From Cornus controversa (lineage: Eukaryota > Streptophyta > Magnoliopsida > Cornales > Cornaceae): DNA of 64,000 nucleotides. The stretch lies in the NCBI GenBank assembly GCA_026545225.1, contig CM048845.1, forward strand, positions 57,140,033-57,204,032, in the 5' to 3' direction. A program made the translations under genes and the position numbers. Positions 21,340 to 58,726 of the stretch are shown piece after piece (positions within the stretch are counted from its first letter, which is position 1; each line of letters opens with the position of its first letter). The notes beneath the pieces are model-generated. The model was not told where the DNA came from, made no database searches, and saw only the letters and a program-made list of their open reading frames with translations.

Positions 21340-23899
21340 TACTTTCCAAACACTTAAAAATATATATTTTTTTTATTTTTTTCCTTTCCAATTTTTTTTG
21401 GAACTCATGGGCACATTTGAAAGATATATTTTGCAAAAAAAAATAATAAAAAATTATATTCATATTTTTAAGCTAATTTATATTTCACTTTCCACACTTT
21501 TAAAGTACATTTCACAAATTTAAAGTTCTTTTCCACACATTTAAAGAACTTTTCCACACACCTAAAACAAATACTTTCTTATGTTTTTTCTTTCCAATTT
21601 TTTTAAGAACTCTTAGTCATATATGAAAGATGTTTTTGCACAAAAAATTCATTAAAATTTATATTCACATTTTTTAATCTCATTTTTTTTAACTTTCCAC
21701 ATTTTAAAAATACTTTCCACACACTTAAAACAAATATATATATATATATTTTTTCCTTTCCAATTTTTTTTGGAACTCTTAGGCACATTTGAAAGATGTA
21801 TTTTGCACAAAAAATCATAAAAATTTATATTCACATTTTTTTGGCTAATTTTTTTCTCACTTTCCACACTTTTAAAGTACTTTCCACAATTTAAAGTTCA
21901 TTTCCACACATTTAAAGAATTTTTCCACAAACCTAAAACAAATAATTTCTTAGGTTTTTTCTCTCCAATTTTTTTAGGAACTCTTAGTCATATATGAAAG
22001 ATGTTTTTGCACAAAAAATTCTTTAAAATTTATATTCACATTTTTTAATCTCATTTTTTTTAACTTTCCACACTTTTAAAGTACTTTCCACACACTTAAA
22101 ACAAATATATAATTTTTTTTCCTTTCGAATTTTTTTTGGAACTCTTAGGCACATTTGAAAGATGTATTTTGCACAAAAAATCATAAAAATTTATATTCAC
22201 ATTTTTTTGACTAATTTTTTTCTCACTTTCCACACTTTTAAAGTACTTTCCACAAATTTAAAGTTCATTTCCACACATTTAAAGAATTTTTCCACACACC
22301 AAAAACAAATCATTTCTTATGTTTTTTCTTTCCAATTTTTTTAGGAACTCTTAGTCATATATGAAAGATGTTTTTGCATAAAAAATTCATTAAAATTTAT
22401 ATTCACATTTTTTAATCTCATTTTTTCTAACTTTTCACACTTTTAAAGTACTTTCCACACACTTAAAAAATATATATATATATTTTTTCCTTTCCAATTT
22501 TTTTTGGAACACTTAGGCACATTTGAAAGATGTATTTTCAACAAAAAAATCATAAAAATTTATATTCACATTTTTTTGGCTAATTTTTTTCTCACTTTCC
22601 ACACTTTTAAAGTATTTTCCTCAAATTTAAAGTTCATTTCCACACATTTAAAGAATTTTTCCGAACACCTAAAACAAATAATTTCTTAGGTTTTTTCTTT
22701 CCAATTTTTTTAGGAACTCTTAGTCATATATGAAAGATGTTTTTGCAGAAAAAATTCATTAAAATTTATATTCACATTTTTTAATCTCATTTTTTTAACT
22801 TTCCAACTTTTAAAGTACTTTTCACACACTTAAAACAAATATATATATATATTTTTTTTTCCTTTCCAATTTTTTTTGGAACTCTTAGGCACATTTGAAA
22901 GATGGATTTTGCACAAAAAATTCATAAAAAATTATATTCAAATTTTTAGGAATAATTTTTTTTCACCTTCCACACTTTTAAACTACTTTCCACACACTTA
23001 AACACAAATATTTTTTTTGTTTTTTTTCTTTACAATTTTTTTAGGAACTCTTAGGCACATTTGAAGGATGTATTTGCACAAAATAATCATAAAAAGTTAT
23101 ATTCAGATTTTTTAAGCTAATTTTTTTCTCACTTTCTACACTTTTAAAGTACTTTCCACACATTTAAAATATTTTCCCACACATTTAAAGTACTTATCCA
23201 CACACCTAAAACAAAGACTTTTTTATCTTTTTTCTTTCCAATTTTTTAGGAACTCTTCGGCATATATGAAAGATGTTTTTGCACAAAAAATTCATTAAAA
23301 TTTATATTCACATTTTTTAATCTCATTTTTTTCACATTCCACACTTTTAAACTACTTTCACACACTTAAACAAATACTTTTTTTATTTTTTTCTTTATTT
23401 TTTTAAGAACTCTTAGGCACATTTGAAGAATGTATTTGCACAAAAAAATTATAAATTTTTTTTTTCACATTTTTTAGGATCTTTTTTTTCTCACTTTCCA
23501 AACTTTTAAAGTTTTTTCAACTAATTTAAAGTATTTTTCCACATATTTAAAACAAATATTTTTTTATGGTTTTTCTTTCCAATTTTTTTAGGAACTCTTA
23601 CGCATATTTGAAGGATGTCTTTGTACAAAAAAATCATAAAAAGTTATATTCACATTTTTTAGGCTCATTTTTTCTCACTTTCCACACTTTTAAAGTAATT
23701 TTCACACATTTAAAGAACTTTTCCACACACCTAAAACAAGTATTTTTTTTTTTATGTATTATCTTTCCAATTTTTTAAAAAACTTTTAGGCATATTTGAA
23801 GGATGTTTTTGCACAAATAATTCATAAAAAATTATATTCACATTTTTTAGTTTCATTCTTTCTCATTTTTCGCACATTTAAAGCACTTTTTCACACACT
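21340..23899 (+). repeat. Left arm: tandem about 182-bp monomers, dimeric period about 370 bp
   Basis: Repeats of a unit with CTTTTAAAGTACTTTCCACA, a T-rich run, CTTTCCAATTTTTTT, GGAACTCTTAG, CATATATGAAAGATG or CACATTTGAAAGATG, and TTCACATTTTTT. The CATATATG and CACATTTG versions alternate, giving a dimer spaced about 366-374 bp in the first four pairs. Short ATG-initiated frames within it are by-products of the AT-rich repeat. Confidence 0.88.
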
Positions 23900-23901
23900 T
23901 A

Positions 23902-26900
23902 AATGTGTGGAGAGTATTTTAATTGTGAGAAAAATGCTTTAAGTGTGTGAAAAAATGCTTTAAATGTGTGGAAAATGAGAAAAAATGAAACTAAAAAATG
24001 TGAATATAAATTTTTGTAATTTTTTGTGCAAACTACATCTTTCAAATGTGCCTAAGAGTTCCAAAAACAATTGGAATGGAAAAAAATATATATATTTGTT
24101 TTAAGTGTGTGGAAAATACTTTAAAAGTATGAAAAGTGAAAAAAATGAGATTAAAAAATGTGAAAATTAAAATTTTATGATATTTTGTGCAAAAACATCA
24201 TTCATATATGCCTAAGAGTTTCTAAAAAAATTGGAAAGCAAAAACATAAAAAAATATTTGTTTTAGGTGTGTGGAAAAGTACTTTAAATATGTGGAAAAT
24301 GACTTTAAATGTGTGGAAAGTACTTTAAAAGTGTGGAAATTGAGGAAAAAATTAGACTAAAAAATATGAATATAAATTTTTTGGATTTTTTTGGGCAAAT
24401 ACATCCTTCAAATATACCTAAGAGTTTCTAAAAAAATTGAAAATAAAAAAATAAATAACATTATTTGTTTTAAGTGTGTGGAAAGTACTTTAAAAGTGTG
24501 AAAAGTTAAAAAAAAAAAGAGATTAAGAAATGTGAATATAAATTTTTATGATTTTTTTTGTGAAAAAACATCTCTCATATATACGAAAGAGTTCCTAAAA
24601 AAGTTGGAAAAATAAAATATAAAAAATTATTTGTTTTAGATGCGTGGAAAATTACTTTGAATGTGTGGAGAAGTACTTTAAATTTGTGGAATGTACTTTA
24701 AAAGTGTGGAAAGTGAGAAAATGTGAGCCTAAAAAATGTGAAAATATTTTTTTATGATTTTTTTGTGCAAAAATATTCTTCAAATATGCCTAAGAGTTAC
24801 AAAAAAATATTGGAAAGCAAAAAACAAAAAAGCAATTGTGTTAAGTGTGTGGAGAGTACTTTAAAAGTGTGGAAAGTAAAAAAAAAAATGAGATTAAAAA
24901 ATGTGAATATAAAATTTTATGATTTTTTTGTGCAAAAGCATCTTTAATATATGACTAAGAGTTTCTAAAAAAATTGGAAAGAAAAAACATAAAAAAATAT
25001 TTGTTTTAGGTGTGTGAAAAAGTACTTTAAATGTGTGGAAAGTACTTTAAAAGTGTGAAAATTGAGGAAAGAAATAGACTAAAAAATGTGAATATAAAGT
25101 TTTTGGATTTTTTTAAACAAAAAGATCCTTCAAATATACCTAAGAGTTTATAAAAAAATTGAAAAGAGAAAAATAAAAAAAATTATTTGTTTTAAGTGTG
25201 TGGAAAGTACTTTAAAAGTGTGGAAAGTGAAAAAAAATGAGATTAAAAAATGTGAAAATTAAAATTTTATGATTTTTTGTGCAAAAACATCATTCATATA
25301 TGCCTAAGAGTTTCTAAAAAAATTGGAAAGCAAAAACATAAAAAAATATTTGTTTTAGGTGTGTGGAAAAGTACTTTAAATATGTGGAAAATGACTTTAA
25401 ATGTGTGGAAAGTACTTTAAAAGTGTGGAAATTGAGGAAAAAATTAGACTAAAAAATATGAATATAAATTTTTTGGATTTTTTTGGGCAAATACATCCTT
25501 CAAATATACCTAAGAGTTTCTAAAAAAATTGAAAATAAAAAAATAAATAACATTATTTGTTTTAAGTGTGTGGAAAGTACTTTAAAAGTGTGAAAAGTTA
25601 AAAAAAAAAAGAGATTAAGAAATGTGAATATAAATTTTTATGATTTTTTTTGTGAAAAAACATCTCTCATATATACGAAAGAGTTCCTAAAAAAGTTGGA
25701 AAAATAAAATATAAAAAATTATTTGTTTTAGATGCGTGGAAAATTACTTTGAATGTGTGGAGAAGTACTTTAAATTTGTGGAATGTACTTTAAAAGTGTG
25801 GAAAGTGAGAAAATGTGAGCCTAAAAAATGTGAAAATATTTTTTTATGATTTTTTTGTGCAAAAATATTCTTCAAATATGCCTAAGAGTTACAAAAAAAT
25901 ATTGGAAAGCAAAAAACAAAAAAGCAATTGTGTTAAGTGTGTGGAGAGTACTTTAAAAGTGTGGAAAGTAAAAAAAAAAATGAGATTAAAAAATGTGAAT
26001 ATAAAATTTTATGATTTTTTTGTGCAAAAGCATCTTTAATATATGATTAAGAGTTTCTAAAAAAATTGGAAAGAAAAAACATAAAAAAATATTTGTTTTA
26101 GGTGTGTGAAAAAGTACTTTAAATGTGTGGAAAGTACTTTAAAAGTGTGAAAATTGAGGAAAGAAATAGACTAAAAAATGTGAATATAAAGTTTTTGGAT
26201 TTTTTTAAACAAAAAGATCCTTCAAATATACCTAAGAGTTTATAAAAAAATTGAAAAGAGAAAAATAAAAAAAATTATTTGTTTTAAGTGTGTGGAAAGT
26301 ACTTTAAAAGTGTGGAAAGTGAAAAAAAATGAGATTAAAAAATGTGAAAATTAAAATTTTATGATTTTTTGTGCAAAAACATCATTCATATATGCCTAAG
26401 AGTTTCTAAAAAAATTGGAAAGCAAAAACATAAAAAAATATTTGTTTTAGGTGTGTGGAAAAGTACTTTAAATATGTGGAAAATGACTTTAAATGTGTGG
26501 AAAGTACTTTAAAAGTGTGGAAATTGAGGAAAAAATTAGACTAAAAAATATGAATATAAATTTTTTGGATTTTTTTGGGCAAATACATCCTTCAAATATA
26601 CCTAAGAGTTTCTAAAAAAATTGAAAATAAAAAAATAAATAACATTATTTGTTTTAAGTGTGTGGAAAGTACTTTAAAAGTGTGAAAAGTTAAAAAAAAA
26701 AAGAGATTAAGAAATGTGAATATAAATTTTTATGATTTTTTTTGTGAAAAAACATCTCTCATATATACGAAAGAGTTCCTAAAAAAGTTGGAAAAATAAA
26801 ATATAAAAAATTATTTGTTTTAGATGCGTGGAAAATTACTTTGAATGTGTGGAGAAGTACTTTAAATTTGTGGAATGTACTTTAAAAGTGTGGAAAGTGA

Positions 26901-28790
26901 GAAAATGTGAGCCTAAAAAATGTGAAAATATTTTTTTATGATTTTTTTGTGCAAAAATATTCTTCAAATATGCCTAAGAGTTACAAAAAAATATTGGAAA
27001 GCAAAAAACAAAAAAGCAATTGTGTTAAGTGTGTGGAGAGTACTTTAAAAGTGTGGAAAGTAAAAAAAAAAATGAGATTAAAAAATGTGAATATAAAATT
27101 TTATGATTTTTTTGTGCAAAAGCATCTTTAATATATGATTAAGAGTTTCTAAAAAAATTGGAAAGAAAAAACATAAAAAAATATTTGTTTTAGGTGTGTG
27201 AAAAAGTACTTTAAATGTGTGGAAAGTACTTTAAAAGTGTGAAAATTGAGGAAAGAAATAGACTAAAAAATGTGAATATAAAGTTTTTGGATTTTTTTAA
27301 ACGAAAAGATCCTTCAAATATACCTAAGAGTTTATAAAAAAATTGAAAAGAGAAAAATAAAAAAAATTATTTGTTTTAAGTGTGTGGAAAGTACTTTAAA
27401 AGTGTGGAAAGTGAAAAAAAATGAGATTAAAAAATGTGAAAATTAAAATTTTATGATTTTTTGTGCAAAAACATCATTCATATATGCCTAAGAGTTTCTA
27501 AAAAAATTGGAAAGCAAAAACATAAAAAAATATTTGTTTTAGGTGTGTGGAAAAGTACTTTAAATATGTGAAAAATGACTTTAAATGTGTGGAAAGTACT
27601 TTAAAAGTGTGGAAATTGAGAAAAAAATTAGACTAAAAAATATGAATATAAATTTTTTGGATTTTTTTGGGCAAATACATCCTTCAAATATACCTAAGAG
27701 TTTCTAAAAAAATTGAAAATAAAAAAATAAAAAACATTATTTGTTTTAAGTGTGTGGAAAGTACTTTAAAAGTGTGAAAAGTTAAAAAAAATGAGATTAA
27801 GAAATGTGAATATAAATTTTTATGATTTTTTTTGTGAAAAAACATTTCTCATATATACGAAAGAGTTCTAAAAAAGTTGAAAAAATAAAATATAAAAAAC
27901 TATTTGTTTTAGATGAGTGGAAAATTACTTTGAATGTGTGGAGAAGTACTTTAAATTTGTGGAATGTACTTTAAAAGTGTGGAAAGTGAGAAAATGTGAG
28001 CCTAAAAAATGTGAAAATATTTTTTTATGATTTTTTTGTGCAAAAATATTCTTCAAATATGCCTAAGAGTTATAAAAAAATATTGGAAAGCGAAAAAAAA
28101 AAAATCAATTGTGTTAAGTGTGTGGAGAATACTTTAAAAGTGTGGAAAGTGAAAAAAAATGAGATTAAAAAATGTGAATATAAAATTTTATGATTTTTTT
28201 TGTGTAAAAACATCCTTCATATATGCCTAAGAGTTTTTAAAAATTATTGGAAAGAAAAAACATAAAAAAATATTTGTTTTAGATGTGTGAAAATATACTT
28301 TAAATGTGTGGAATGTAGTTTAAATGTATGGAAGGTGAGTAAATGTGAGCCTAAAAAATGTGAAAGTAATTTTTTTATAATTCTTTTGTGCAAATACATT
28401 TTTCAATTATGCTTAATAGTTCCTAAAAAAAATGTGAATATAAATTTTTATGATTTATTTGTGAAAAAAATCTTTCCAACGTGTCTATAAATTGCTAAAT
28501 AAATTGTAAAAATAACATAAAAAAATATTTATTTTAAGTGTAAAAAAGTAATTTAAATGTGTGGAAAGTGAGTAAAAATGAGATAAAAAATGCGAATGTA
28601 AATTTTTATGATTTATTTGTGAAAAAATATCTTTTAAATTTTTTAAGCAATTTTTTTTATGTCCACAAACATTTAAACACATTTTTTTTTTATAAACATT
28701 TTTAAAGAATATTAAAATGTATATATTTTATGTGTAAGAAATATTTTAAATGTAGTGAAAATTTACTCAAATGTGTAAAATGAATGGGAA
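23902..28790 (-). repeat. Right arm: the same monomers in inverted orientation
   Basis: The complement of the left-arm monomer (AAAAATGTGAATATAA, TTTGTGCAAA, CTAAGAGTT, AAATTGGAAAG, AAGTGTGTGGAAAGTACTTT) repeated over 4.9 kb. The junction with the left arm reads CACACTTAAATGTGTG, a near-perfect palindrome centred at about 23900, so the arms abut directly. Monomers near the right end (28290-28790) are more diverged. Confidence 0.88.
24148..28240 (-). repeat. 1,092-bp higher-order repeat, about 3.75 copies
   Basis: Equivalent points lie at 24723, 25815, 26907 and 27996, giving periods of 1092, 1092 and 1089 bp. Each unit holds six roughly 182-bp monomers. Copies one to three are nearly identical over the stretches I compared; the fourth has more substitutions and small indels. 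This expansion accounts for most of the length difference between the two arms. Confidence 0.9.
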
Positions 28791-35121: not shown

Positions 35122-35435
35122 TGATGAAGCAAAAATTCACCCCGAGCTAGTCAAAAGCCAACCTATAAAAAAGGACAAGAGAAGAGTAGTCGAAAGGGCA
35201 CCGGCACGGTACCGGCCGACTACGCTTCGACGATCAAGTCAGAAATCGGAACGACTTCTAAAGCTGTCAAGGAATTCTGAGGGTATTAATTGCGTACCTT
35301 GGTATATGAATCGTCTAGTATTTATAGCGACCAAGTGACAGACGTGTCCTAGTAAAACTCTATCTCCTCAACCTGGTCAAAGTTTTCTCCTCTTCCACGT
35401 CACATGTCTCGTATTAGGAGTTAACCACCCCATCA
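35122..35435 (-). repeat. 3' LTR of the Tat-type element
   Basis: Matches 58390-58732 except that it lacks a 29-bp segment (around CTTTTCTCACTTGGGG in the other copy). A TATA-like box (CTATAAATAC on the minus strand) is near 35320. Confidence 0.88.
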
Positions 35436-35964: not shown

Positions 35965-35968
35965 CTAG
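35945..35968 (+). pseudogene. First codons of the antisense gene, cut by Athila
   Basis: ATG at 35945 starts MVDYYEC and then a stop (TAG 35966-35968) at the very edge of the Athila insertion. Reading on at 50047 keeps the frame. This is the amino-terminal scrap of the gene described at 50047-51897. Confidence 0.5.
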
Positions 35969-35969
35969 G

Positions 35970-37542
35970 TGATAAGCACAGAATGTTGTGCATTCGGTCC
36001 TTCTAATTTACATATGTTAATCCTTTAATTATGTTTATATTAGTATTTTTATAGTTTTATTATGTTTTTGTCATTTTCAGATCCTTAGATGAAATAGTGG
36101 TTAATTCCATGGTTCTTGGGCTTTCAATGAGGCTTACATAAGAAGAAGAAATTGCCATTAGTTTGGGCCAAATTCCAATGATGAGTTCATGGATTGGGCC
36201 AAGCTATATTGAAGATTTAATGCAAAAGGGGCTAAAAATCTGAATTGGTTCATTCATTGGGTCAAGTACAAGTGCAAGACTAATCTCAAGCCCAAAATTC
36301 GTTCAAAATTCTAATCTGCTCACTGTTTGTATTTTGACCATAACTTCATGCTCCAAACTCCAATTAAGGTGATTTTTGCGGCTATGGAAAGATAAAAGAG
36401 AGTTCTAAATACGTTTAGTTTTGAGAAATCTCTAAATATGACATCTTGGTGGTTGAAAGTGGCCAAAACAGTAGGATAAATATTCTGGGCAGATTTTTCT
36501 TTGGTTGCTTTGAAAATTTTGTGACAAGTGACCAATGAGATGACAAGCAACCACCTCACTCAATTAATTCACCAAAGTGCTATACACATGGAGGGAGATG
36601 ATCCAATTCTTCTAAAATGGAGTACATATGGAGCTATTTAGGCCATAGGATGAGTTTTAGTGAAAGAAGTGGTGGACACTCATATTGCACTAACTTTGGC
36701 TATAAATGGAGGGGAATTGAGTAGTGTAGGGAAGAGAAGTGAGTGGAAATATTCTGCACACATATAGAAATATGAAGTGTTCTTCAACTATGAAGACTTG
36801 TAAGTTAGCCATGAGGAGCTAAAACTCTTCCTAGGGCATTGATGTAGCCCTAGCCAAGCATCAATGGTATGATAATAATATTTTTATTTGGGATTGTTAT
36901 ATATGTATAATAAGTTGTATAACTTTGAGGATTACATTTGTAATTGAAGTATAAAGTTATGTTTAATCTTGACTTCATTCTTCTCTTATCTTATAAAGTA
37001 TGAAAGTTATACAATAATTTTATTAGAACATAAATTCATTAGATTTGATAATTCATGCTTAAGGAAGATGAATCGTTCTACACTTTTAATTTCATGTTAT
37101 GTCTTTTATCTAAGTAGTTAGGTAGACGATTCATGCTAACTAGAGATGAATTATTCTTGTCTTTTGATTTATGTATTTTCTTGAAGATATCATGGTGGTA
37201 TGTGACAAATTCCATGAATCATGATTATACATATGTAACTTTCCCAAGTTGAAATATATTCTTCCATTGATGTGAGGCTAGTGGTGAAATCAATACCCTA
37301 GTCCCTCTTATATTTATCAATTCAAACTTTAACTAGTGCCATTTATTTTATGTTAAACAAATACCAAAAATATCAACCTCTCTTTCAATGAATCAAATGA
37401 GACTAATTTAATCACATTCTCTGTGGGATCGACACCTTCACAAGAGCCCTATCTTACAAAGATTCGTGCTATTGCGAGTGGTTTATTAAGAATTGGACAA
37501 GAATTATTTTGGTAAAACAAAATACCCTTTCCAAGCACAACA
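35970..37542 (+). repeat. 5' LTR of Athila
   Basis: Same length as the 3' LTR and about 99% identical by eye. The TATA box TATAAATGG is at 36701-36709. Confidence 0.95.
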
Positions 37543-37547
37543 ATTTT

Positions 37548-37565
37548 TGGCGCCGTTGCCGGGGA
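37548..37565 (+). promoter_or_regulatory. Athila primer-binding site (tRNA-Asp)
   Basis: TGGCGCCGTTGCCGGGGA, complementary to the 3' end of plant tRNA-Asp and standard for Athila, 5 bases after the 5' LTR. Confidence 0.93.
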
Positions 37566-38216: not shown

Positions 38217-40658
38217 ATGTTTGGTCGTCGTTCGTTATCACTACCATTACTTCCATTAGATCCTAATCTTGAAAGAACTCTTAGGCATCTTAAAGGAACT
38301 GTAAGGGACTTTAATTTACCTAGAGAATCTTCAATTGAAAACATGGCAGAAGATGGTGTAAGACCAGTAATTGTAGAAGAAGTTGTACCACCCATAATGG
38401 TTGAGGAAAGACCAATGCTCCTTCGGGATCATTACATTCCTACCACATACAACTTTCCTTCAGGAATTCAATTACCAAATGTAACGGCCACCCATTATGA
38501 AATTAAGTCCAGTGTTATCCAAATGTTACCATCTTTTTATGGACTTAATAATGAAGATCCATATAGGCACCTTGATGAATTCCTTGAAATTTGCTCTACC
38601 CTAAGGATGCAAGGTTTTACTGAAGATGCCTTAAGGATGCAACTTTTTCCATTCTCTTTGAAAGACAAAGCTAAGCATTGGTTGAAATCCTTAGAAAATA
38701 ACACGATTACTTCTTGGACACAATTACAACAAGAGTTCCTCCAGAAGTACTTTCCTATAGGAAAAACCAATCAAATTAGAAAATCTATCACTGGATTTGC
38801 ACAAAGTGAAGGAGAACATTTCTATGAAACTTGGGAAAGATTGAAAGATCTTCTTAGGAAGTGTCCCCATCATGCTGTCCCAAAATGGCAATTGGTGCAA
38901 TGTTTCTATGATGGATTAACTGAACCACATAGACAAATGGTTGATGCCTCTTGTGGTGGAACATTCATGCTAAAGAGTGAAAGTGAAGCTTGGAAACTTT
39001 TTGAGAATCTTAGTGAAAATTCGATGCATCATGCTTCATCTAGTCATTCTAAGGTCAAAGGTCTCTTTGAAGTAGGCAATTCAGTAGATGTGTCTATTAA
39101 AGTGGATGCATTGTCAAAGAAGCTGGATCAATTGATGGCAGCAAATCAAGCACCTCCTACTCAGTCATCTGTGCCACCTGAGTTGTGTTCATTTTGTTCT
39201 AGTCCATCACATCATGCCAAAGATTGTCAAATCATTGGCCAATTTTCTGAACTTGGGCAAGAACAAGTGAATGCTACTTTCTCTAGACCAGGGAATAATC
39301 CATATTCCAATACCTATAACCCGGGATGGAGAAATCATCCTAATTTTTCATGGAGACCCCAAGCCACGGGAAATTCAAATCCTCAACCTATTGGACAACC
39401 CATACAGTCCAATTTTGCGTCCAATAGTCATCCTTTCAATCCCTCATCCAATTACCAACCTTCTCAACAACACCAGAACCAAGCAACTCCACTTCCTAGG
39501 CATTCAGCTTTTGAAGACAAGGTGTTGGCTGCATTGAGCAATCTTGAGTCAAATACTCAATTGCTACATTCTCATTCTCAATCCATTTCTAAGCTAGAAT
39601 CCCAAATCGGGCAAATAGCTAATTCTTTGAATAGAAGAGAGGAGGGAAAACTTCCAAGTCAGCCAGTGGTCAATCCTAAACCAAAAGGACAATACATGAT
39701 TGATGAGAATGCATCTAGTTCCTCTCATCATGAGCATGTCCAAGCCATCATGACCCTTAGGAGTGGGAAGGAGATAGATAACAAGATTGAGAAAAAGGAA
39801 GAGAAGAAAAATGAGATTCCAAAAGTTTCAAAAGAAATCCCTAAAAATCCAAATAATTTGCCCCAAAATTCAAAAGATTTGGTGAAACAATTGTCAAAGG
39901 ACAAAGAAGTCAGGAATGAAGTTCTTTCTTCACCTATTCCCATTCTTGGGACGAGATATGAGCCTAAAGCTCCATATCCTGAACGTCTCAAAGAACCATA
40001 CTGTTATGGAAAGCAAGGAGAAAAGATCCAGGACATGATGGAAGTTTTCAAGCAAGTTAAGATTAATCTTCCTCTTCTTGATGCAATCAAACAAATTCCT
40101 TCATATTCCAAATTTCTCAGGGACTTGTGTACACAGAAGAGAAAATCAAGGAGTCATGTTCCAAAGAAAATTCTTCTCACTGAGCAAGTTAGTTCCATAC
40201 TGCTGTACAATACACCTCCAAAATTCAAGGACCCTGGTGCTCCTACAATCTCGTGTGTCATTGGAAACTATGAAATTGGAAAAGCCCTACTTGATTTAGG
40301 TGCTAGTGTTAATCTACTTCCTTACTCAGTATACTCGCAGTTAGGCTTAGGAGAGCTTAAACCAACTCCAATTGTCCTACAACTTGCAGATAGATCGGTT
40401 AAGCAACCTCGAGGAATCATTGAGGATGTTCTCATCAAAGTAGACAAGTTCTACTTTCCAGTCGATTTCATTGTCCTTGACACCGAACCCGTCCAAAATC
40501 CAAAAAAATATATACCTATAATCCTTGGTCGACCTTTCTTAGCCACGGCTAATGCATGCATAAATTGCAGAACAGGGGTTATGGATATATCTTTTGGGAA
40601 CATGAATGTAAGATTGAATGTCTTCAATGCTTCACAACATCCGTCAGATGCAAAATAA
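38217..40658 (+). CDS. Athila Gag-protease
   Basis: An open 813-codon frame. The N-terminal region has the Athila-type Gag (DHYIPTTYNFPSGIQLP near residue 65, then MLPSFYGLNNEDPYRHLDEF and KHWLKSLENNTITSW). A zinc knuckle, CSFCSSPSHHAKDC (CX2CX4HX4C), is near residue 325 and a low-complexity Pro/Asn/Gln region follows. A Lys/Glu-rich stretch lies near 520-570. The aspartic protease active site LLDLGASVNLLPYS is near residue 690, with ILGRPFLAT near 770. Gag forms the particle and binds RNA; the protease matures it. The frame ends in TAA, and pol continues in the same frame 27 bases later, so pol may need stop readthrough or reinitiation. Confidence 0.93.
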   Translation: MFGRRSLSLPLLPLDPNLERTLRHLKGTVRDFNLPRESSIENMAEDGVRPVIVEEVVPPIMVEERPMLLRDHYIPTTYNFPSGIQLPNVTATHYEIKSSVIQMLPSFYGLNNEDPYRHLDEFLEICSTLRMQGFTEDALRMQLFPFSLKDKAKHWLKSLENNTITSWTQLQQEFLQKYFPIGKTNQIRKSITGFAQSEGEHFYETWERLKDLLRKCPHHAVPKWQLVQCFYDGLTEPHRQMVDASCGGTFMLKSESEAWKLFENLSENSMHHASSSHSKVKGLFEVGNSVDVSIKVDALSKKLDQLMAANQAPPTQSSVPPELCSFCSSPSHHAKDCQIIGQFSELGQEQVNATFSRPGNNPYSNTYNPGWRNHPNFSWRPQATGNSNPQPIGQPIQSNFASNSHPFNPSSNYQPSQQHQNQATPLPRHSAFEDKVLAALSNLESNTQLLHSHSQSISKLESQIGQIANSLNRREEGKLPSQPVVNPKPKGQYMIDENASSSSHHEHVQAIMTLRSGKEIDNKIEKKEEKKNEIPKVSKEIPKNPNNLPQNSKDLVKQLSKDKEVRNEVLSSPIPILGTRYEPKAPYPERLKEPYCYGKQGEKIQDMMEVFKQVKINLPLLDAIKQIPSYSKFLRDLCTQKRKSRSHVPKKILLTEQVSSILLYNTPPKFKDPGAPTISCVIGNYEIGKALLDLGASVNLLPYSVYSQLGLGELKPTPIVLQLADRSVKQPRGIIEDVLIKVDKFYFPVDFIVLDTEPVQNPKKYIPIILGRPFLATANACINCRTGVMDISFGNMNVRLNVFNASQHPSDAK

Positions 40659-40685: not shown

Positions 40686-43600
40686 ATGGTTGAAGATTCA
40701 CTTTCATCCTTTTTATCGAAAGACCCTTTAGAGGCACTCTTGACTCACTATGATTTTGAAGGATATGACATCGAAAATAGTGAAGTCGATTCTGCATTTG
40801 AGATTGATACTATCATGGACTTTTCACCATGGAAAATGTCAAAGGAGCCACTTCCGTTATTGTCTAGTACTCCTCCAATTCCATCCCTTAAATTCCCACC
40901 CAAATTAGAGCTCAAACCACTTTCGGATAAGCTAAAGTACATTTTCTTAGGTTCTAATGAAACTCTTCCAGTTATCATTGCTTCGGACTTGACAAAGGAC
41001 CAAGAAAGTAGTTTGTTGACTGTACTTCGACTACACAAAAAGGCGATTGGATGGACTGTAGCTGATTTAAAAGGAATTGATCCTTCTATTTGTATGCATC
41101 GCATTCATCTGGAGGATAATGCTAAACCATCTTGTGAGGTACAAAGAAGATTGAATCCAAATATGAAAGAAGTTGTGATGAAGGAAGTAGTCAAGTTGTT
41201 AGATGCAGGAATCATCTATCCCATCTCTGATAGCAAATGGGTGAGCCCCATTCAAGTGGTACCTAAGAAGTCTGGAATCACCGTAGTTGAGAATTCGACT
41301 GGAGAATTAATTCCGCAACGTACAACAACTGGTTGGCGTGTGTGCATTGATTACAGAAAACTCAACTCTACAACTAGGAAGGATCATTTTCCCTTACCAT
41401 TTATTGATCAAATCCTAGAACGTCTTGCTGGTCAGAGTTACTTTTGTTTTCTAGATGGATATTCTGGCTATAATCAAGTAGCTGTCGATCCAAAGGATCA
41501 AGAGAAGACAACCTTCACATGTCCATTTGGAACATTTGCTTATAGACGCATGCCCTTTGGGTTATGTAATGCACCTGTAACATTTCAAAGGTGTATGATG
41601 TCTATTTTTTCAGACATGGTAGAAAAATTTCTTGAAGTTTTTATGGATGACTTTTCAGTCTTTGGACCTTCTTTTGAAAAATGTCTCCAAAATTTGTCAA
41701 TTGTTCTTCAGCGTTGTAAAGAGACAAATTTGATCTTGAGTTGGGAGAAGAGTCATTTCATGATAAAAGAAGGAATTGTATTAGGACACATTGTGTCAGA
41801 AAGAGGAATTGAAGTAGATAGAGCCAAGGTTGAACTCATTTCTAATCTTCCACCACCTACATCGGTGAGGCAAATTAGATCATTCCTTGGACATGCAGGA
41901 TTTTATCGTCGATTTATCAAAGACTTTAGCAAGATAGCTAAACCATTGTGCAATTTACTTGCCAAAGATACTCCTTTCAACTTTGATAAAACATGTCTTG
42001 AAGCTTTTGAAAAGCTCCGTTCTCTTCTAGCCTTTACCCCAATTATGAAACCTCCTGATTGGTCTTTACCATTTGAGATCATGTGTGATGCATCCGAATA
42101 TGCTATGGGAGCTGTCCTAGGACAACATGTAGATAAACTTTCTCATGTTATCTACTACGCTAGTAAAACCCTCTCAGATGCTCAGTTGAATTATACCACA
42201 ACTGAGAAGGAATTATTAGCCGTCGTGTTTGCCTTGGATAAATTTCGATCATATCTGTTAGGATCCAAGGTAGTTGTGTATTCTGATCATGCTGCTCTAA
42301 AGCATTTGCTAGCCAAGAAAGAAACCAAGCCCCGTTTGATTAGATGGATACTCTTGCTTCAAGAGTTTGATTTTGAAATACGAGACAAGAAAGGTTCTGA
42401 GAATGTAGTAGCCGATCATCTTTCTCGTATTATCATTAAATCCTCTGATTCCATCCCAGTTCATGATTCCTTTCCTGATGAGCAACTATTGATAATTACT
42501 GATGAGAAAGTACCTTGGTTTGCTGACATTGTGAATTACTTAGCAATAGGTAAAATTCTTTTGAATTGGACCAAACAAGAAAAAGATCAATTCTTTTCCC
42601 AAATAAGGAGGTATTTCTGGGATGATCCTGAATTATTCAAATACTGTCCAGACCAAATAATCCGTCGTTGTGTCCCTGAAAGTGAGTTTCAAAGTATTCT
42701 TACTTTTTGTCACACCTTAGCATGTGGAGGACATTTCAGTGCTAAAAAGACCTCTCAAAAGGTTTTACAAAGTGGATTATTTTGGCCATCATTATTTCGG
42801 GATTCTTATAATTTTTGTCGAGCTTGTGAGCGATGTCAGAAATTAGGATCAATGTCTAGGAAAGACATGATGCATTTAAATCCCATTTTAATCGTTGAAA
42901 TCTTTGATGTATGGGGTATAGATTTCATGGGACCATTTCCACCATCATTTGGATGTGAGTACATACTGTTGGCCGTAGATTATGTATCTAAATGGATTGA
43001 AGCGGTTGCCACCAAATCGAATGATCACAAAGTTGTGATTAAGTTTATTCAAACTAACATTTTTACTCGTTTTGGTACACCGAGAGCAAGAATAAGTGAT
43101 GGAGGTAAACATTTTTGTAATAGGTTTCTTCAAACCTTGCTCATCAAATACTTTGTTACTCATAAAATAGCTACACCTTACCATCCTCAGACAAGTGGAC
43201 AAGTTGAAGTATCTAATAGGGAAATAAAGCATATTCTTGAAAAAACGGTTAGGCCAGATAGAAAAGATTGGTCTTTAAGACTAAATGATGCACTTTGGGC
43301 CTATCGAACTGCCTTTAAAACTCCCATTGGAATGACCCCTTACCGTCTTGTTTACGGGAAAGCTTGCCATCTCCCAGTTGAATTAGAACAAAAAGCTCTT
43401 TGGGCCATTAAGAAATTCAATTTTGACATGAAAATGGCTGGCTCAACCCGAAAACTCCAACTGAATGAACTTGAAGAGATGAGAAATGATGCTTATGAAA
43501 GTGCCAAAATTTATAAAGCTAAAATGAAGGCATTTCATGATAAAAATATTGTGAATAAAACCTTTGTTCCAGGACAGAAGGTTTGGTTGTTCAATTCTAG

Positions 43601-43814
43601 ATTAAACCTCTTTCCTGGAAAGCTTCGTTCACGTTGGGATGATCCTTTCATAATTTCATCTGTTTTTCCCTATGGAGTTGTGGAACTTCAAGATCCTAAG
43701 AATGATAATCTTTTCAAGGTCAATGGTCAAAGATTGAAGCTTTATGTAGAAGATACTGTACAAGCAGAAGATGTTGAATCCGTTAACTTGACGGATCCTG
43801 TTTATTTTGACTAG
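40686..43814 (+). CDS. Athila Pol: reverse transcriptase, RNase H, integrase
   Basis: An open 1,042-codon frame. [22 protein letters not shown] near residue 220, [13 protein letters not shown] near 255 (catalytic Asp) and [10 protein letters not shown] near 316 (FMDD box). RNase [16 protein letters not shown] near 466, [19 protein letters not shown] near 505, [11 protein letters not shown] near 533. Integrase: zinc-binding HTLACGGH and [11 protein letters not shown] near 675-720, then catalytic Asp in [11 protein letters not shown] near 743, Asp in [13 protein letters not shown] near 803, and Glu in [11 protein letters not shown] near 848. All key residues I looked for are present, so it looks enzymatically competent. 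Initiation at 40686 is assumed; the frame is also open upstream to the gag stop. Confidence 0.93.
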
Positions 43815-45145: not shown

Positions 45146-45690
45146 TTAATTTTGTTTTGAATAAGAAAAAGAAGGATTTTTCTCGACAATAGCTATGAGT
45201 CTCCCATGATTCTCCTGAATCTGCTCACCGGAACTCTGTAGCTCATCCAGCTTCGTCTTCATTTCATTAGAATACTCAGTTACAAGCTTTCACAACTGTT
45301 TATTCTCTGCTTTCAGTTCTCTATTTTTTTTCTGAGACTCCTTAATTCTTTTCTGAAGAACTTTAACGTTAGTTGTTAGCATCTGAACTTCAGTTATTCT
45401 TGCTAACAAACATTGGCCTATGTTTGAAATCGACGCAGCCGACCGAATGCTGAGAGTCAAAGAGTCATCAATGGCCATAATGTCAGACCTATTTGCTAAA
45501 ACTCTTTTATCTCGAGGAGTCAGCAAATTTTTGCTGCTCTCGTAGCAGTTGTATCATTCAGCATCACGGATTCCTCCACTAGGTGAGGATCAATAGAGGA
45601 TAGGAATGTTGCCTGCCCAACATTGGTTGATGGCACCTCCGACAACACATTTAAATCGAAGTGATTTTTGGAAACAAAAGAGGAAGCCAT
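45146..45690 (-). pseudogene. Antisense coiled-coil ORF inside Athila, two lesions
   Basis: A minus-strand ATG at 45690 starts MASSFVSKNHFDLNVLSEVP. After about 45 codons an A-run appears one base short, shifting the frame. The next frame (45526-45290) carries LTPRDKRVLANRSDIMAIDD and a heptad-like segment QKRIKESQKKNRELKAENKQ, then stops at TGA; beyond it the same frame continues as a further helix (KLVTEYSNEMKTKLDELQSS) to a TAA at 45146. The protein would be a coiled-coil of about 180 residues. Antisense extra ORFs are known in Tat/Athila relatives; whether this is one or a captured fragment is unknown. Confidence 0.5.
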
Positions 45691-46046
45691 TTTTGAGAGC
45701 TTGTGGTGAAGAAGATAGATAGATACAACAATGTTCCAATATTAAAAAAAAATCTGCTCTTCAAATGCATAAAAAATTTGCCCACCAATTATGCATCTCG
45801 AATTATGAAATTTGTCCAATCAATGCTTTTAGAGCTAGGTTAGGTCATTTTGTCAAACATAGATGGCTTGTTTGTCAATGACATCATTAAGTGTGTGGCG
45901 GCATGTTTGGAATATGTGCAATATAGGTACAATGCATGTGTGAGACACTCTTTTACCCCAAAAGTGAAAAGAATTTGTTTGATTAAAAAAAAAAATTTGA
46001 AAGAGTAAGTGTTAGCAATCAGTGTTTCTTCTTCGTGTTTTCCAAA

Positions 46047-46628
46047 ATGTCTAAAACTCCTTGTGGTGTTTGCAAATTCTTGAGAAACAAATGTGATAAG
46101 TATTGCATTTGTGCTCCTTATTTTTGCCATGAAGATAGTATAGACACTTTTGCTGCCATCCATAAAATTTTTGGGTATCGCAACTTCTCAAACATCCTTG
46201 CTCATCTCCCAGAAGAACATCGTGGTACAGCTGTTCTAACTATGGCATATGAAGCTCAAGCTAGGCTTCACGATCCCATTTTTGGTTGCGTTTCGTATAT
46301 TCTTTCTCTTGAATGGCAACTTCTTAATCTACAAGCACAACTGGTTTCTCTCAGTCACCTAGCAGCTCAAAACTTTGCTTCTAGCTCCTCCAGTGTAAAC
46401 CCTAATGATATTTTTGAAGGAAACTTTTCATCACATCCACCCGATAATCATGTTCAAAGCTGGGTTCCATCTGAAAATGTGGACATGGCACCACTACTGA
46501 ACCAAGACTTATGCAACAATTTTGACACCATGTCTTATTGTCAAAATCAGTTTATGGATCCAAACATCGTACAAGATTATGGTGATGAGTTCCAATCAAT
46601 TGTTTCTTCCTATCTACGTCATTCATAA
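46047..46628 (+). CDS. LOB-domain (LBD) transcription-factor-like gene captured in Athila
   Basis: An intact intronless 193-codon frame starting at ATG 46047. The LOB domain is nearly complete: the zinc-finger-like CX2CX6CX3C block (CGVCKFLRNKCDKYC), APYF, the block FAAIHKIFGYRNFSNIL (where plant LBDs usually have FGASN, here FGYRN), then AVLTMAYEAQARLHDPIFGC, with the invariant DP and GCV. The following LEWQLLNLQAQLVSLSHLA fits the LX6LX3LX6L zipper of class I LBDs except that the last Leu is Ala. A Ser/Asn/Asp-rich tail of about 90 residues follows. LBDs are plant-specific nuclear DNA-binding regulators. It lies between pol and the 3' LTR on the coding strand of a young element, so it is cargo, not a host locus. 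Confidence 0.88.
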   Translation: MSKTPCGVCKFLRNKCDKYCICAPYFCHEDSIDTFAAIHKIFGYRNFSNILAHLPEEHRGTAVLTMAYEAQARLHDPIFGCVSYILSLEWQLLNLQAQLVSLSHLAAQNFASSSSSVNPNDIFEGNFSSHPPDNHVQSWVPSENVDMAPLLNQDLCNNFDTMSYCQNQFMDPNIVQDYGDEFQSIVSSYLRHS

Positions 46629-48450
46629 ATTAAGCAACATGTTATTACTTTAGATGAATGATGAAATCTTGATTTTTTGTTCTTAATTTGTGTTTAACTT
46701 ATTTTGGATGTTCCGATTAATTTTGTTGCCTTGGTTGGTATGTATTGTGTTCTGCATGACAGGTTCTTGTATCCAAGTTTGGGGGGATGGCTAATCCTTA
46801 TGGATGCTTAACTAGTTTTTGATATTTCTACCACCACGGTAATATTGTTCTATCACTTACCATATACTTTATGTTTTTGTTACACATTGAGGACAATGTG
46901 TGATTTAAGTTTGGGGGTAAGGAAGAACAATTTTGTGTTGTTATGTTTTATTTGGAAAAAAAAAATTAAAAAAAAAATAATAATAATAATATATTGGTAA
47001 TTTTTACACTATGATTTGATTTTTCTATTTTCAATGTGCAAATAATTTTTGAAAATCTTGAAGCTGCAGTATATTTTATAGATTTTATCCTATCTTTTAA
47101 TTAGAATAAATTTCATGAATTTTAAAACTCAGAACAATATTATTCACGATAGCCCTTCGATATAATTTGAAATTGATGAGTGATTGCATGTTAGAAATCT
47201 GAAGAATAAAAGTGGAGATTTAACCCAGTGAGCTTTTGTGATATTCTTATTATTTTGAGGGTTAAAAGGTTAAATTCTAAAATTTTCATTGAGTTCGCAT
47301 AATTTGTTGATCGGTCTCATTATTTTTTTCTTTTGATCAAATATTGGGAATTTTATACCACACTATCTTTTAAGTTCATACTTGTTGAAGAATTATACTA
47401 ATCCTTGAGAAATGATTTTAGGCCATCTTTGGATATTTTTTAGCCTTTAAATTTCTTTTCTTGGTAATGCAATACCACTAGTGAACCCGTTGAGCTTTAG
47501 CTAACCTTCATTTCATAACCCTTTTATCAAAGTGTTTCGGAATCGATTTGATCAATAGATAAAAAAAAAAAAAGAAAAAAAGAAAAAAAATAGAAAAAGA
47601 AAAGTGAAGAAAAGAAGGTATGGATTTGTTGAAGAAGTGTATACAAAAAGAATTAATTGACAAAAGTAAGAAGAAGTTGAATGCAATGTGCTCTAAGGAA
47701 TTGACTTTTCCCAAGCATTCTCGAATACACATTTCAATTTCACCATCACCTCTTTATCCTCTTTTTACCTAACATTACATCCTAGTAAAAGCCCTATTTG
47801 ATCTCAAGGATGGTATGGTTCTAAAACAGTCATGACTGAGCTATAGTGTTGTGATATAAATTCTTAATGTTTGATATCCCTTTCATGAGACTACATATTC
47901 CTTTATGTATATGCGGTCCTTCAGATGAATCATATGTGAGATAATTTGCACTTGTTTACATTATTCTTCTCATATATACTTGAGTGAAAAATTAGCCAAT
48001 CTCTGAGTACTTTATTTTGAGTGAAATATCATATGTGAGATTTGAGATCAAAGCTAATTTTCTAAAGAAATCTGGACTGCAGTCGCTTTTAATTTGAGAA
48101 TTATATTTTCAGGCTATATTCACACACACACTCTGAGTTAATAATAGTAATGAAATTTTCTAATTTTTGGATAGTATTGAATCTTTCAACCTTTATTACA
48201 CACTGAAGTGGATTGAATAAAGTATTCTTGCCAGTTGCACATTAAATGGAGAAAATTTTATTGAGTATAATTATTATCACTTGATGTTTGTGGGTAACAT
48301 ATCTGTTAAACCCTCACGAGACTTCACTCGTCCACTAGGGATGCCTAGGGGTTTAAAAGGCTTGTTGCATTTGCTAAATGCAATCGTATTTCTCATGAAA
48401 GAGGAAAGTTGTTTTATTTTTCTTGTTGTGTATTGCTAAGGGACTAGCAA
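46629..48450 (+). other. Athila 3' noncoding region
   Basis: About 1.8 kb with no gene. It carries two internal purine tracts, AAGTTTGGGGGGAT (46775-46788) and AAGTTTGGGGGTAAGG (46907-46922), an A-rich and TAA-rich stretch (46958-46993) and another A-rich run (47560-47605). Confidence 0.6.
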
Positions 48451-48453
48451 TAT

Positions 48454-48468
48454 GTAAGTTTGGGGGTG
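48454..48468 (+). promoter_or_regulatory. Athila polypurine tract
   Basis: TAAGTTTGGGGGTG directly before the 3' LTR. The same core occurs at 44594, 46775 and 46907. Confidence 0.85.
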
Positions 48469-50041
48469 TGATAAGCACAGAATGTTGTGCATTCGGTCCT
48501 TCTAATTTACATATGTTAATCCTTTAATTATATTTATATTAGTATTTTTATAGTTTTATTCTGTTTTTGTCATTTTCAGATCCTTAGATGAAATAGTGGT
48601 TAATTCCATGGTTCTTGGGCTTTCAATGAGGCTTACATAAGAAGAAGAAATTGCCATTAGTTTGGGCCAAATTCCAATGATGAGTCCATGGATTGGGCCA
48701 AGCTATATTGAAGATTTAATGCAAAAGGGGCTAAAAATCTGAATTGGTTCATTCATTGGGTCAAGTACAAGTGCAAGACTAATCTCAAGCCCAAAATTCG
48801 TTCAAAATTCTAATCTGCTCACTGTTTGTATTTTGACCATAACTTCATGCTCCAAACTCCAATTAAGGTGATTTTTGCAGCTATGGAAAGATAAAAGAGA
48901 GTTCTAAATACATTTAGTTTTGAGAAATCTCTAAATATGACATCTTGGTGGTTGAAAGTGGCCAAAATAGTAGGATAAATATTCTGGGCAGATTTTTCTT
49001 TGGTTGCTTTGAAAATTTTGTGACAAGTGACCAATGAGATGACAAGCAACCACCTCACTCAATTAATTCACCAAAGTGCTATACACATGGAGGGAGATGA
49101 TCCAATTCTTCTAAAATGGAGTACATATGGAGCTATTTAGGCCATAGGATGAGTTTTAGTGAAAGAAGTGGTGGACACTCATATTGCACTAACTTTGGCT
49201 ATAAATGGAGGGGAATTGAGTAGTGTAGGGAAGAGAAGTGAGTGGAAATATTCTGCACACATATAGAAATATGAAGTATTCTTCAACTATGAAGACTTGT
49301 AAGTTAGCCATGAGGAGCTAAAACTCTTCCTAGGGCATTGATGTAGCCCTAGCCAAGCATCAATGGTATGATAATAATATTTTTATTTGGGATTGTTATA
49401 TATGTATAATAAGTTGTATAACTTTGAGGATTACATTTGTAATTGAAGTATAAAGTTATGTTTAATCTTGACTTCATTCTTCTCTTATCTTATAAAGTAT
49501 GAAAGTTATACAATAATTTTATTAGAACATAAATTCATTAGATTTGATAATTCATGCTTAAGGAAGATGAATCGTTCTACACTTTTAATTTCATGTTATG
49601 TCTTTTATTTAAGTAGTTAGGTAGACGATTCATGCTAACTAGAGATGAATTATTCTTATCTTTTGATTTATGTATTTTCTTGAAGATATCATGGTGGTAT
49701 GTGATAAATTCCATGAATCATGATTATACATATGTAACTTTCTCAAGTTGGAATACATTCTTCCATTGATGTGAGGCTAGTGGTGAAATCAATACCCTAG
49801 TCCCTCTTATATTTATCAATTCAAACTTTAACTAGTGCCATTTATTTTATGTTAAACAAATACCAAAAATATCAACCTCTCTTTCAATGAATCAAATGAG
49901 ACTAATTTAATCACATTCTCTGTGGGATCGACACCTTCACAAGAGCCCTATCTTACAAAGATTCGTGCTATTGCGAGTGGTTTATTAAGAATTGGACAAG
50001 AATTATTTTGGTAAAACAAAATACCCTTTCCAAGCACAACA
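48469..50041 (+). repeat. 3' LTR of Athila
   Basis: 1,573 bp, with TATAAATGG at 49200-49208. Differences from the 5' LTR seen by eye are few and mostly transitions. Confidence 0.95.
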
Positions 50042-50046
50042 ATAGG

Positions 50047-58389: not shown

Positions 58390-58726
58390 TGATGAAGCAA
58401 AAATTCACCTCGAGCTAGTCAAACGCCAACCTGTAAAAAAGGACAAGAGAAGAGTAGTCGAAAGGGCACCGGCATGGTACCAGCCGATTACGCACCGACG
58501 ATCAAGTCAGAAATCGGAAGGGCTTCTAAAGCTGTCAAGGAATTCTGAGGGTATTAATTACGTACCTTGGTATATGAATTGTCCGGTATTTATAGCGACC
58601 AAGCGACATATGTGTCCTAGTAAAACTCTACCTCCTCAACTTCCTTTTCTCACTTGGGGTTAACCATCCCTGGTCAAAGTTTTCTCCTCTTCCACGTCAC
58701 ATGTCTCGTATTAGGAGTCAACCACC

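Follow-up and report, generated by a model that had tools for sequence, protein, structure and literature searches.

An LBD29-derived open reading frame as accessory gene of an Athila-like retrotransposon family in Cornus controversa

How did an open reading frame (ORF) for a LOB-domain (LBD) transcription factor come to lie inside an LTR retrotransposon of Cornus controversa, and is it the chance load of one element or a gene that an element family has multiplied and kept? The ORF was found in a stretch of 64,000 nucleotides of contig CM048845.1, which was analysed as a whole and is referred to below as the window.

Structure of the element and its LOB-domain protein

The element in the window has the following features, given in window positions:

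35965..35969, no strand: left target-site duplication, CTAGG, in flanking sequence
35970..37542, + strand: 5' LTR, 1573 bp, TG..CA ends, one of a pair found by BLAST
37548..37565, + strand: primer-binding site TGGCGCCGTTGCCGGGGA, directly after the 5' LTR
38217..40658, + strand: gag and protease part of the frame, 813 aa (Pfam Retrotrans_gag, E 2.3e-19; Asp_protease_2, E 3e-5)
40686..43814, + strand: RT, RNase H and integrase part, 1042 aa, in the same frame as gag, past one in-frame stop
45149..45690, − strand: antisense, putatively coiled-coil ORF in two frames (broken in the window copy), about 196 aa and open in many other copies
45691..46046, no strand: intergenic gap of 356 bp between the divergent ORFs, a candidate two-way promoter
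46047..46628, + strand: LBD29-derived ORF, 193 aa, with the LOB domain (residues 5-102) at 46059-46352
46319..46320, + strand: site of the lost intron, where host LBD29a and LBD29b are interrupted by 110 and 109 bp and the ORF is continuous
48456..48468, + strand: polypurine tract AAGTTTGGGGGTG, read from the sequence
48469..50041, + strand: 3' LTR, 1573 bp
50042..50046, no strand: right target-site duplication, ATAGG, matching the left copy at four of five bases

The LTRs, the primer-binding site, the polypurine tract, the duplication matching at four of five bases and the order of the RT, RNase H and integrase domains identify the element as a Ty3/gypsy LTR retrotransposon, the complete order of gag, protease, RT, RNase H and integrase being that of Ty3/gypsy. 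The primer-binding sequence TGGCGCCGTTGCCGGGGA is present in the DNA and is a putative tRNA-Asp site, a kind typical of Athila; the carrier family is called Athila-like here. The two LTRs differ by 13 mismatches in 1573 bp (12 transitions and one transversion) with no gaps, in agreement with an earlier, preliminary description of this DNA that had called them nearly identical. The resulting K of 0.0083 translates into an age of about 0.3 My if 1.3e-8 per site is taken as the yearly rate, as in PMC5664825. Gag-pol forms a single frame that is interrupted once, by an in-frame stop after the protease region and before the RT region. The positions confirmed that the LBD ORF, on the element's coding strand, follows pol, which ends at 43814, and precedes the 3' LTR. 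Two more AAGTTTGGGGG motifs resembling the polypurine tract are found at 46775-46917, about 150 and 280 bp past the LBD ORF, and an A-rich stretch occurs about 330 bp after its stop codon.

A domain search with the 193 aa product returned PF03195 over residues 5-102 (E 2.4e-30), bearing out the LOB domain that had been read from the letters. The preliminary description had also listed the main blocks of this domain, including a partial leucine zipper. The CX2CX6CX3C cysteine block was indeed found as CGVCKFLRNKCDKYC; the strict LX6LX3LX6L spacing of the zipper, a feature of class I LBD proteins, was absent from the ORF, and a relaxed pattern matched neither the ORF nor residues 81-112 of host LBD29a. 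The sole PDB sequence match at an E-value of 0.001 or better was 5ly0, the LOB domain of wheat Ramosa2 (E 3.6e-24), and the same structure was the best fold match when the predicted model was used with Foldseek (E 1.1e-6). This AlphaFold2 model had a mean pLDDT of 61.8, with 10-residue means of 64-88 over residues 1-110 and values below 50 for residues 128-193, and it predicts that the LOB fold is retained by the element protein. The LOB motif GCGGCG, a candidate site of self-regulation, was absent from the six element parts scanned.

Origin from the host LBD29a gene

Two intron-bearing LBD29 genes, LBD29a (C6:62965348) and LBD29b (C3:45730492), are present elsewhere in the host genome and carry GT-AG introns of 110 and 109 bp, respectively, after LQQQ or LQRQ. 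At this site the element ORF is continuous (LQQQ|VVNLQ), and its DNA aligns across the junction from exon 1 to exon 2 of LBD29a with 74% and 77% identity. The last residues of the C-terminus are nearly those of LBD29a, with the stretch before them missing, and no convincing match to the LBD29a UTRs was detected beside the ORF, outside the coding sequence. The spliced host LBD29a protein itself is 86% identical to an LBD29-like protein of Cornus florida and 78% identical to that of Nyssa sinensis. The element ORF thus shares with the host LBD29 genes (AtLBD29/LBD16 group) the LOB domain, an alignable C-terminal tail and the exon content, and differs from them in having no intron, a shortened tail, FGYS or FGYR in place of FGAS and a location inside an LTR element; its LOB domain has also evolved much faster than that of host LBD29.

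In protein trees the ORF clustered with Cornus LBD29a and with P0001, an open 203 aa sequence that is 68% identical to the ORF, carries the same tail deletion and comes from a 936-base contig of another sample tagged 'lgn'. Support for this cluster was 88.2/96 when a second group of intronless LBD29-like sequences (see below) was included and 63.5/89 without it. Judged by its sequence, P0001 suggests that the LBD-carrying family either occurs in a further source or has an older subfamily. Among the best 120 of 517 matches in a profile search, all carried plant protein names, mostly LBD29-like, apart from P0001 and P0160 (48%). An AU test on 17 sequences, from which the second intronless group was excluded, accepted three positions of the ORF, next to host LBD29a (p 0.60), next to C. 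florida LBD29a (p 0.53) and next to the two together (p 0.13). Four other positions were rejected (p 0.0033 or less), namely beside Nyssa plus Cornus a, beside the LBD29b pair, beside Nyssa, and outside. The loss of the intron together with this placement indicates that the capture took place in the lineage of Cornus LBD29a and by way of a spliced mRNA, and both the intronless state and the mRNA route that had been proposed earlier are upheld by the host exon junction, the LBD trees and the topology tests. We regard the identity of the ORF and its origin from host LBD29a as practically certain.

The second group comprises five loci (L074-L078) that are older intronless LBD29-like relics with stops. 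Three of them were included in the trees and joined the element ORF with support of 96.8/99, which may reflect long-branch attraction. The relic at C9:40166842-40167375 (L074, L097, L098) is flanked by an RNase H on its upstream side (RT_RNaseH, E 4.1e-22) and, downstream, by the domain of a viral movement protein (PF01107, E 8.6e-15), and the genes around it appear to be of pararetrovirus kind, the nearest kind of the RNase H having been judged by eye. No movement protein was detected at any of the four other copies of the group, for which 801-base pieces 1.5-2.3 kb downstream were searched. By eye, the ORF found upstream of the C9 relic also occurs at the C6 copy, where it runs antisense to the LBD, and another flank is common to two of the four other copies. 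An endogenous pararetrovirus, suspected from the C9 locus as the carrier of this group, was accordingly not established, as the movement protein was absent from the pieces searched at the four other copies.

Copy number, linkage and maintenance of the frame

A search of the 772-Mb assembly with the ORF, in which 150 of 264 candidates were scored, yielded at least 79 LBD places in which no fewer than 159 of the 193 residues aligned at an identity of 74% or higher; shorter and split pieces came in addition. Identity was 97% or more in 37 of the 79 listed places, 90-96% in 27 and 74-89% in 15. From 66 of these places ORFs were retrieved, and 62 were whole and free of indels; the other four, two truncated and two with an indel, were left out of the codon analysis. 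Among the 62 whole ORFs, 44 had no stop, 60 started with ATG and 57 were distinct. LTR sequence followed the LBD on its 3' side in all 20 copies examined, in full length in 18, and the outer flanks of these copies represented 16 distinct sites, one flank being common to two copies. In three of the 20 the LTR was directly followed by another primer-binding site, indicating tandem elements. Three LBD copies on C6 (36349526, 36362118 and 36374711) are spaced 12592-12593 bp apart, with a primer-binding site directly after two of the LTRs, and are tandem elements sharing LTRs.

The linkage was also evident from the RT side. In a genome search with the RT, 136 of 15072 candidates were scored, 63 with 90-100% identity (the family) and 73 with about 85% (a sister family). 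An LBD on the same strand was located 2.5-4.0 kb downstream (median 3885 bp) of 55 of the 63 listed family RTs, eight being without a listed LBD, whereas none of the 73 listed sister RTs had a listed LBD within 12 kb; the LBD is thus the hallmark of a single branch within a larger group of elements. A gag-pol frame of 1865-1866 aa without a stop in the matched stretch was present in 18 of the 63 listed family copies, and one further copy had a frame of the same length with a stop inside. The gag/pol frame, described beforehand as open, is therefore closed by its single stop in the window copy and open in those 18 relatives. These data confirmed that the LBD is an accessory gene of a retrotransposon family, present in most of its listed copies. 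The search for further copies that had been proposed for this locus accordingly showed that the LBD is copied along with the element, and the notion of a cargo of one young element had to be replaced by that of a family gene.

The LBD of the family is accompanied by an ORF on the opposite strand, about 360 bp upstream and about 196 aa long in open copies. No Pfam family was found for it above the cut-off, and a reading of the sequence by eye together with weak Pfam matches points to a coiled coil. A search with this antisense ORF listed 141 matches, of which 98 were kept and 43 dropped as presumed second pieces of the same loci. A divergent LBD lay within 3 kb at 85 of the 98 kept loci, and conversely the antisense ORF was present at 76 of the 79 listed LBD places. 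It occurred within 12 kb downstream of just one of the 73 listed sister RTs, and in that case it is part of an adjacent LBD element. The sequence that separates the two ORFs could serve as a two-way promoter. At 13 of the 98 kept loci no listed LBD was found; some of these are about 56% identical, e.g. C7:13974746, which is open, and they might represent the source of the antisense ORF or another element.

Two simpler accounts of the locus can be weighed against these data. That an ordinary host LBD gene adjoins the element or was invaded by it, or that the assembly joined unrelated pieces, found no support; it is contradicted by the LTR sequence that follows the LBD in every one of the 20 copies examined, which have 16 distinct outer flanks, and by the intron-bearing host LBD29 genes elsewhere, and its probability is negligible. 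Arrival of the element with an LBD from another plant family could be argued from P0001, the closest outside relative, which comes from another sample; the AU test, however, holds the ORF within the Cornus LBD29a lineage and rejects Nyssa, Nyssa plus Cornus a, LBD29b and the outside position, and on this placement a horizontal source was ruled out as very improbable.

Across the 57 distinct copies, the zinc cysteines C6, C9, C16 and C20 were kept in 52, 57, 56 and 54, respectively, C6 thus being absent from five, and G43, Y68 and R73 were present in all 57. The canonical FGAS block was replaced by FGYS or FGYR in 55 of 57. A change from FGAS to FGYR after capture, as already proposed, is supported in a stepwise form, since residue 44 is Y in 56 copies and residue 45 is R in 31 and S in 24.

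Indels were compared in 25 sequences, the window and 24 copies, after three copies with diverged flanks (L005, L006 and L025) had been dropped. Outside simple repeats, the 600 bp before the 582-bp ORF had nine distinct indels and the 1400 bp after it 29, while the ORF itself had none, an absence that is supporting rather than decisive because frameshifted copies appear as split search matches and were not sampled. Variable sites per kb numbered 119 in the ORF, 187 upstream and 196 downstream. When the three dropped copies were added in pairwise, non-independent comparisons, one ORF indel event (in L025) stood against 342 and 161 in the flanks.

Substitution rates gave a less strict picture. 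On the element branch since the split from LBD29a, dN was about 0.24 and dS 0.31-0.40, giving an omega of 0.61-0.82 with bootstrap intervals exceeding 1 in all seven copies tested; in copy L001, dN was 0.25 on the element branch versus 0.017 on the host branch. Variable sites at codon positions 1, 2 and 3 (91, 72 and 83) were nearly even, as in neutral sequence, pairwise omega among four copies ranged from 0.27 to 1.14, and codon maximum likelihood across the copies gave an omega of 0.67 with kappa at 1. Replacement to silent changes on inner branches were 28-30 to 3-5 in the LOB domain and 18 to 16 in the tail, and no significant overall difference between inner and terminal branches was detected (Fisher p 0.46-0.88). 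Stops occurred in 18 of the 57 distinct copies, with 5 of 15 stop positions recurring in more than one copy; at the tips, 27 were observed and about 26 expected from the 105-107 silent changes (about one stop per four silent changes). The tips thus look neutral, yet the long-diverged lineage is still open, whereas stops would be expected to have built up in a master lineage free of selection. We read these data as a frame that is kept open with a relaxed or re-tuned domain, rather than as strong purifying selection. The comparison of dN and dS across copies, suggested at the outset, gives weak evidence of residue constraint; maintenance of the frame is supported by the indel counts. Selection has probably kept the LBD ORF.

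Possible role and parallels in other systems

In Arabidopsis, LBD16, LBD17, LBD18 and LBD29 act downstream of ARF7 and ARF19, and any one of the four is sufficient for callus when expressed ectopically (PMC7412315). The best overall explanation of the present data, which we favour with some reserve, is that captured LBD29a serves the family as an accessory gene. Intron loss, tree, position and copy number show that in the Cornus lineage the element took up a copy of a spliced host LBD29a mRNA, downstream of pol and ahead of the 3' LTR. The LBD has since multiplied with the element as one half of a divergent cassette with the antisense, putatively coiled-coil ORF, its frame apparently staying open in the lineages that multiplied, as the data above support. 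The protein still matches the LOB fold, with a domain that has changed fast and a tail that is shortened. Such a variant LBD29 may act in trans in the host nucleus, by dimerising with host LBDs or by binding their targets, and could shift the auxin-LBD-driven proliferation of founder-cell or callus type in element-expressing cells. By analogy with the Arabidopsis proteins, this shift of host proliferation is a tentative proposal, to which we give less than even weight.

The passive alternative, in which a single capture in a master element was carried along with no function and has not yet decayed because many copies are young, agrees with an omega not clearly below 1, with the near-even variation over codon positions, with the neutral look of the tips and with the 97% or higher identity of 37 of the 79 listed places. 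It is at odds with 44 of 62 full copies being stop-free after a divergence of dS 0.31-0.40 and dN about 0.24 from LBD29a, with an ORF free of indels in 25 sequences whose flanks show 38 over 2 kb (frameshifted copies being under-sampled) and with the ORF standing behind 55 of 63 listed family RTs, and we consider it unlikely. If the ORF has a function, the element LBD might instead block dimers of host LBD16, LBD18 and LBD29 in a dominant-negative manner and not drive proliferation. The fast change of its LOB domain (the dN of L001 on the element and host branches), a tail shorter than that of LBD29a and the few copies lacking a zinc cysteine would fit such an inhibitor; the domain has not been dismantled, however, because 57, 56 and 54 of 57 copies retain C9, C16 and C20, respectively, and all retain G43, Y68 and R73, and this reading likewise appears rather improbable.

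Returning to a trans-acting variant of LBD29, it is conceivable, although distinctly doubtful, that an autonomous retrotransposon lineage keeps and re-tunes LBD29 because the protein drives cells into an auxin-LBD founder- or callus-like state that favours element expression and passage through the germ line. If this were true, the second intronless LBD29a-like group (C9:40166842 and others) would represent a second capture of the same gene.

Acutely transforming animal retroviruses carry a captured cellular growth gene. There, likewise, a spliced cellular growth regulator was captured by an LTR element and then altered; the LBD family differs in keeping its own gag-pol beside the gene, and a growth effect of its LBD is hypothetical. 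It may be a plant parallel to the growth-gene-carrying animal retroviruses. A captured developmental regulator, its parent gene in the same genome and an LBD-free sister family together provide a clean natural experiment, on which one can test if plant retrotransposons, like some animal retroviruses, exploit regulators of host cell fate in order to spread.

Among plant elements, Athila and other LTR elements with additional ORFs resemble the dogwood family in that pol is followed, ahead of the 3' LTR, by further ORFs in sense or antisense orientation (PMC7264820), whereas the sense ORF of the dogwood family is a recognisable host transcription factor and not an Env-like or unknown protein. The LTR-mediated retroduplication of NLR genes in pepper shares the capture of spliced mRNA in LTR elements and its multiplication, but about 72% of these captures reside in non-autonomous elements without gag/pol (PMC5664825), in contrast to an LBD at a fixed place in a family with stop-free 1865-1866-aa frames in 18 of 63 listed copies. 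Genes captured by LTR elements of rice and sorghum (PMC3726574, in part) are similarly host genes, some of them under purifying selection, and the words LOB and transcription factor are absent from the main text of that article, gene tables aside. In the open-licence literature on captured genes, LOB/LBD and retrotransposons, covered by titles and the starts of abstracts, no LBD gene carried by an LTR element was met. A retroduplicated gene within an LTR element is in itself an ordinary, already known kind of event; what is unusual here is that a family with stop-free gag-pol frames has a host transcription factor in most of its listed copies, the frame of this factor being largely preserved. 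Such element copies could raise the apparent number of LBD genes in Cornus genomes.

Other repeats were observed in the window. AT-rich tandem arrays with units near 350-370 bp and inverted arms between them extend over 21356-28084 (GC 0.22-0.26 in 4-kb bins), and a diverged direct repeat occupies 12-2167 and 7489-9720, about 7.5 kb apart, with 83-90% identity in the listed segments. A 251-bp repeat with 93% identity is found at 35122-35372, just outside the element, and at 58390-58640, 23 kb off.
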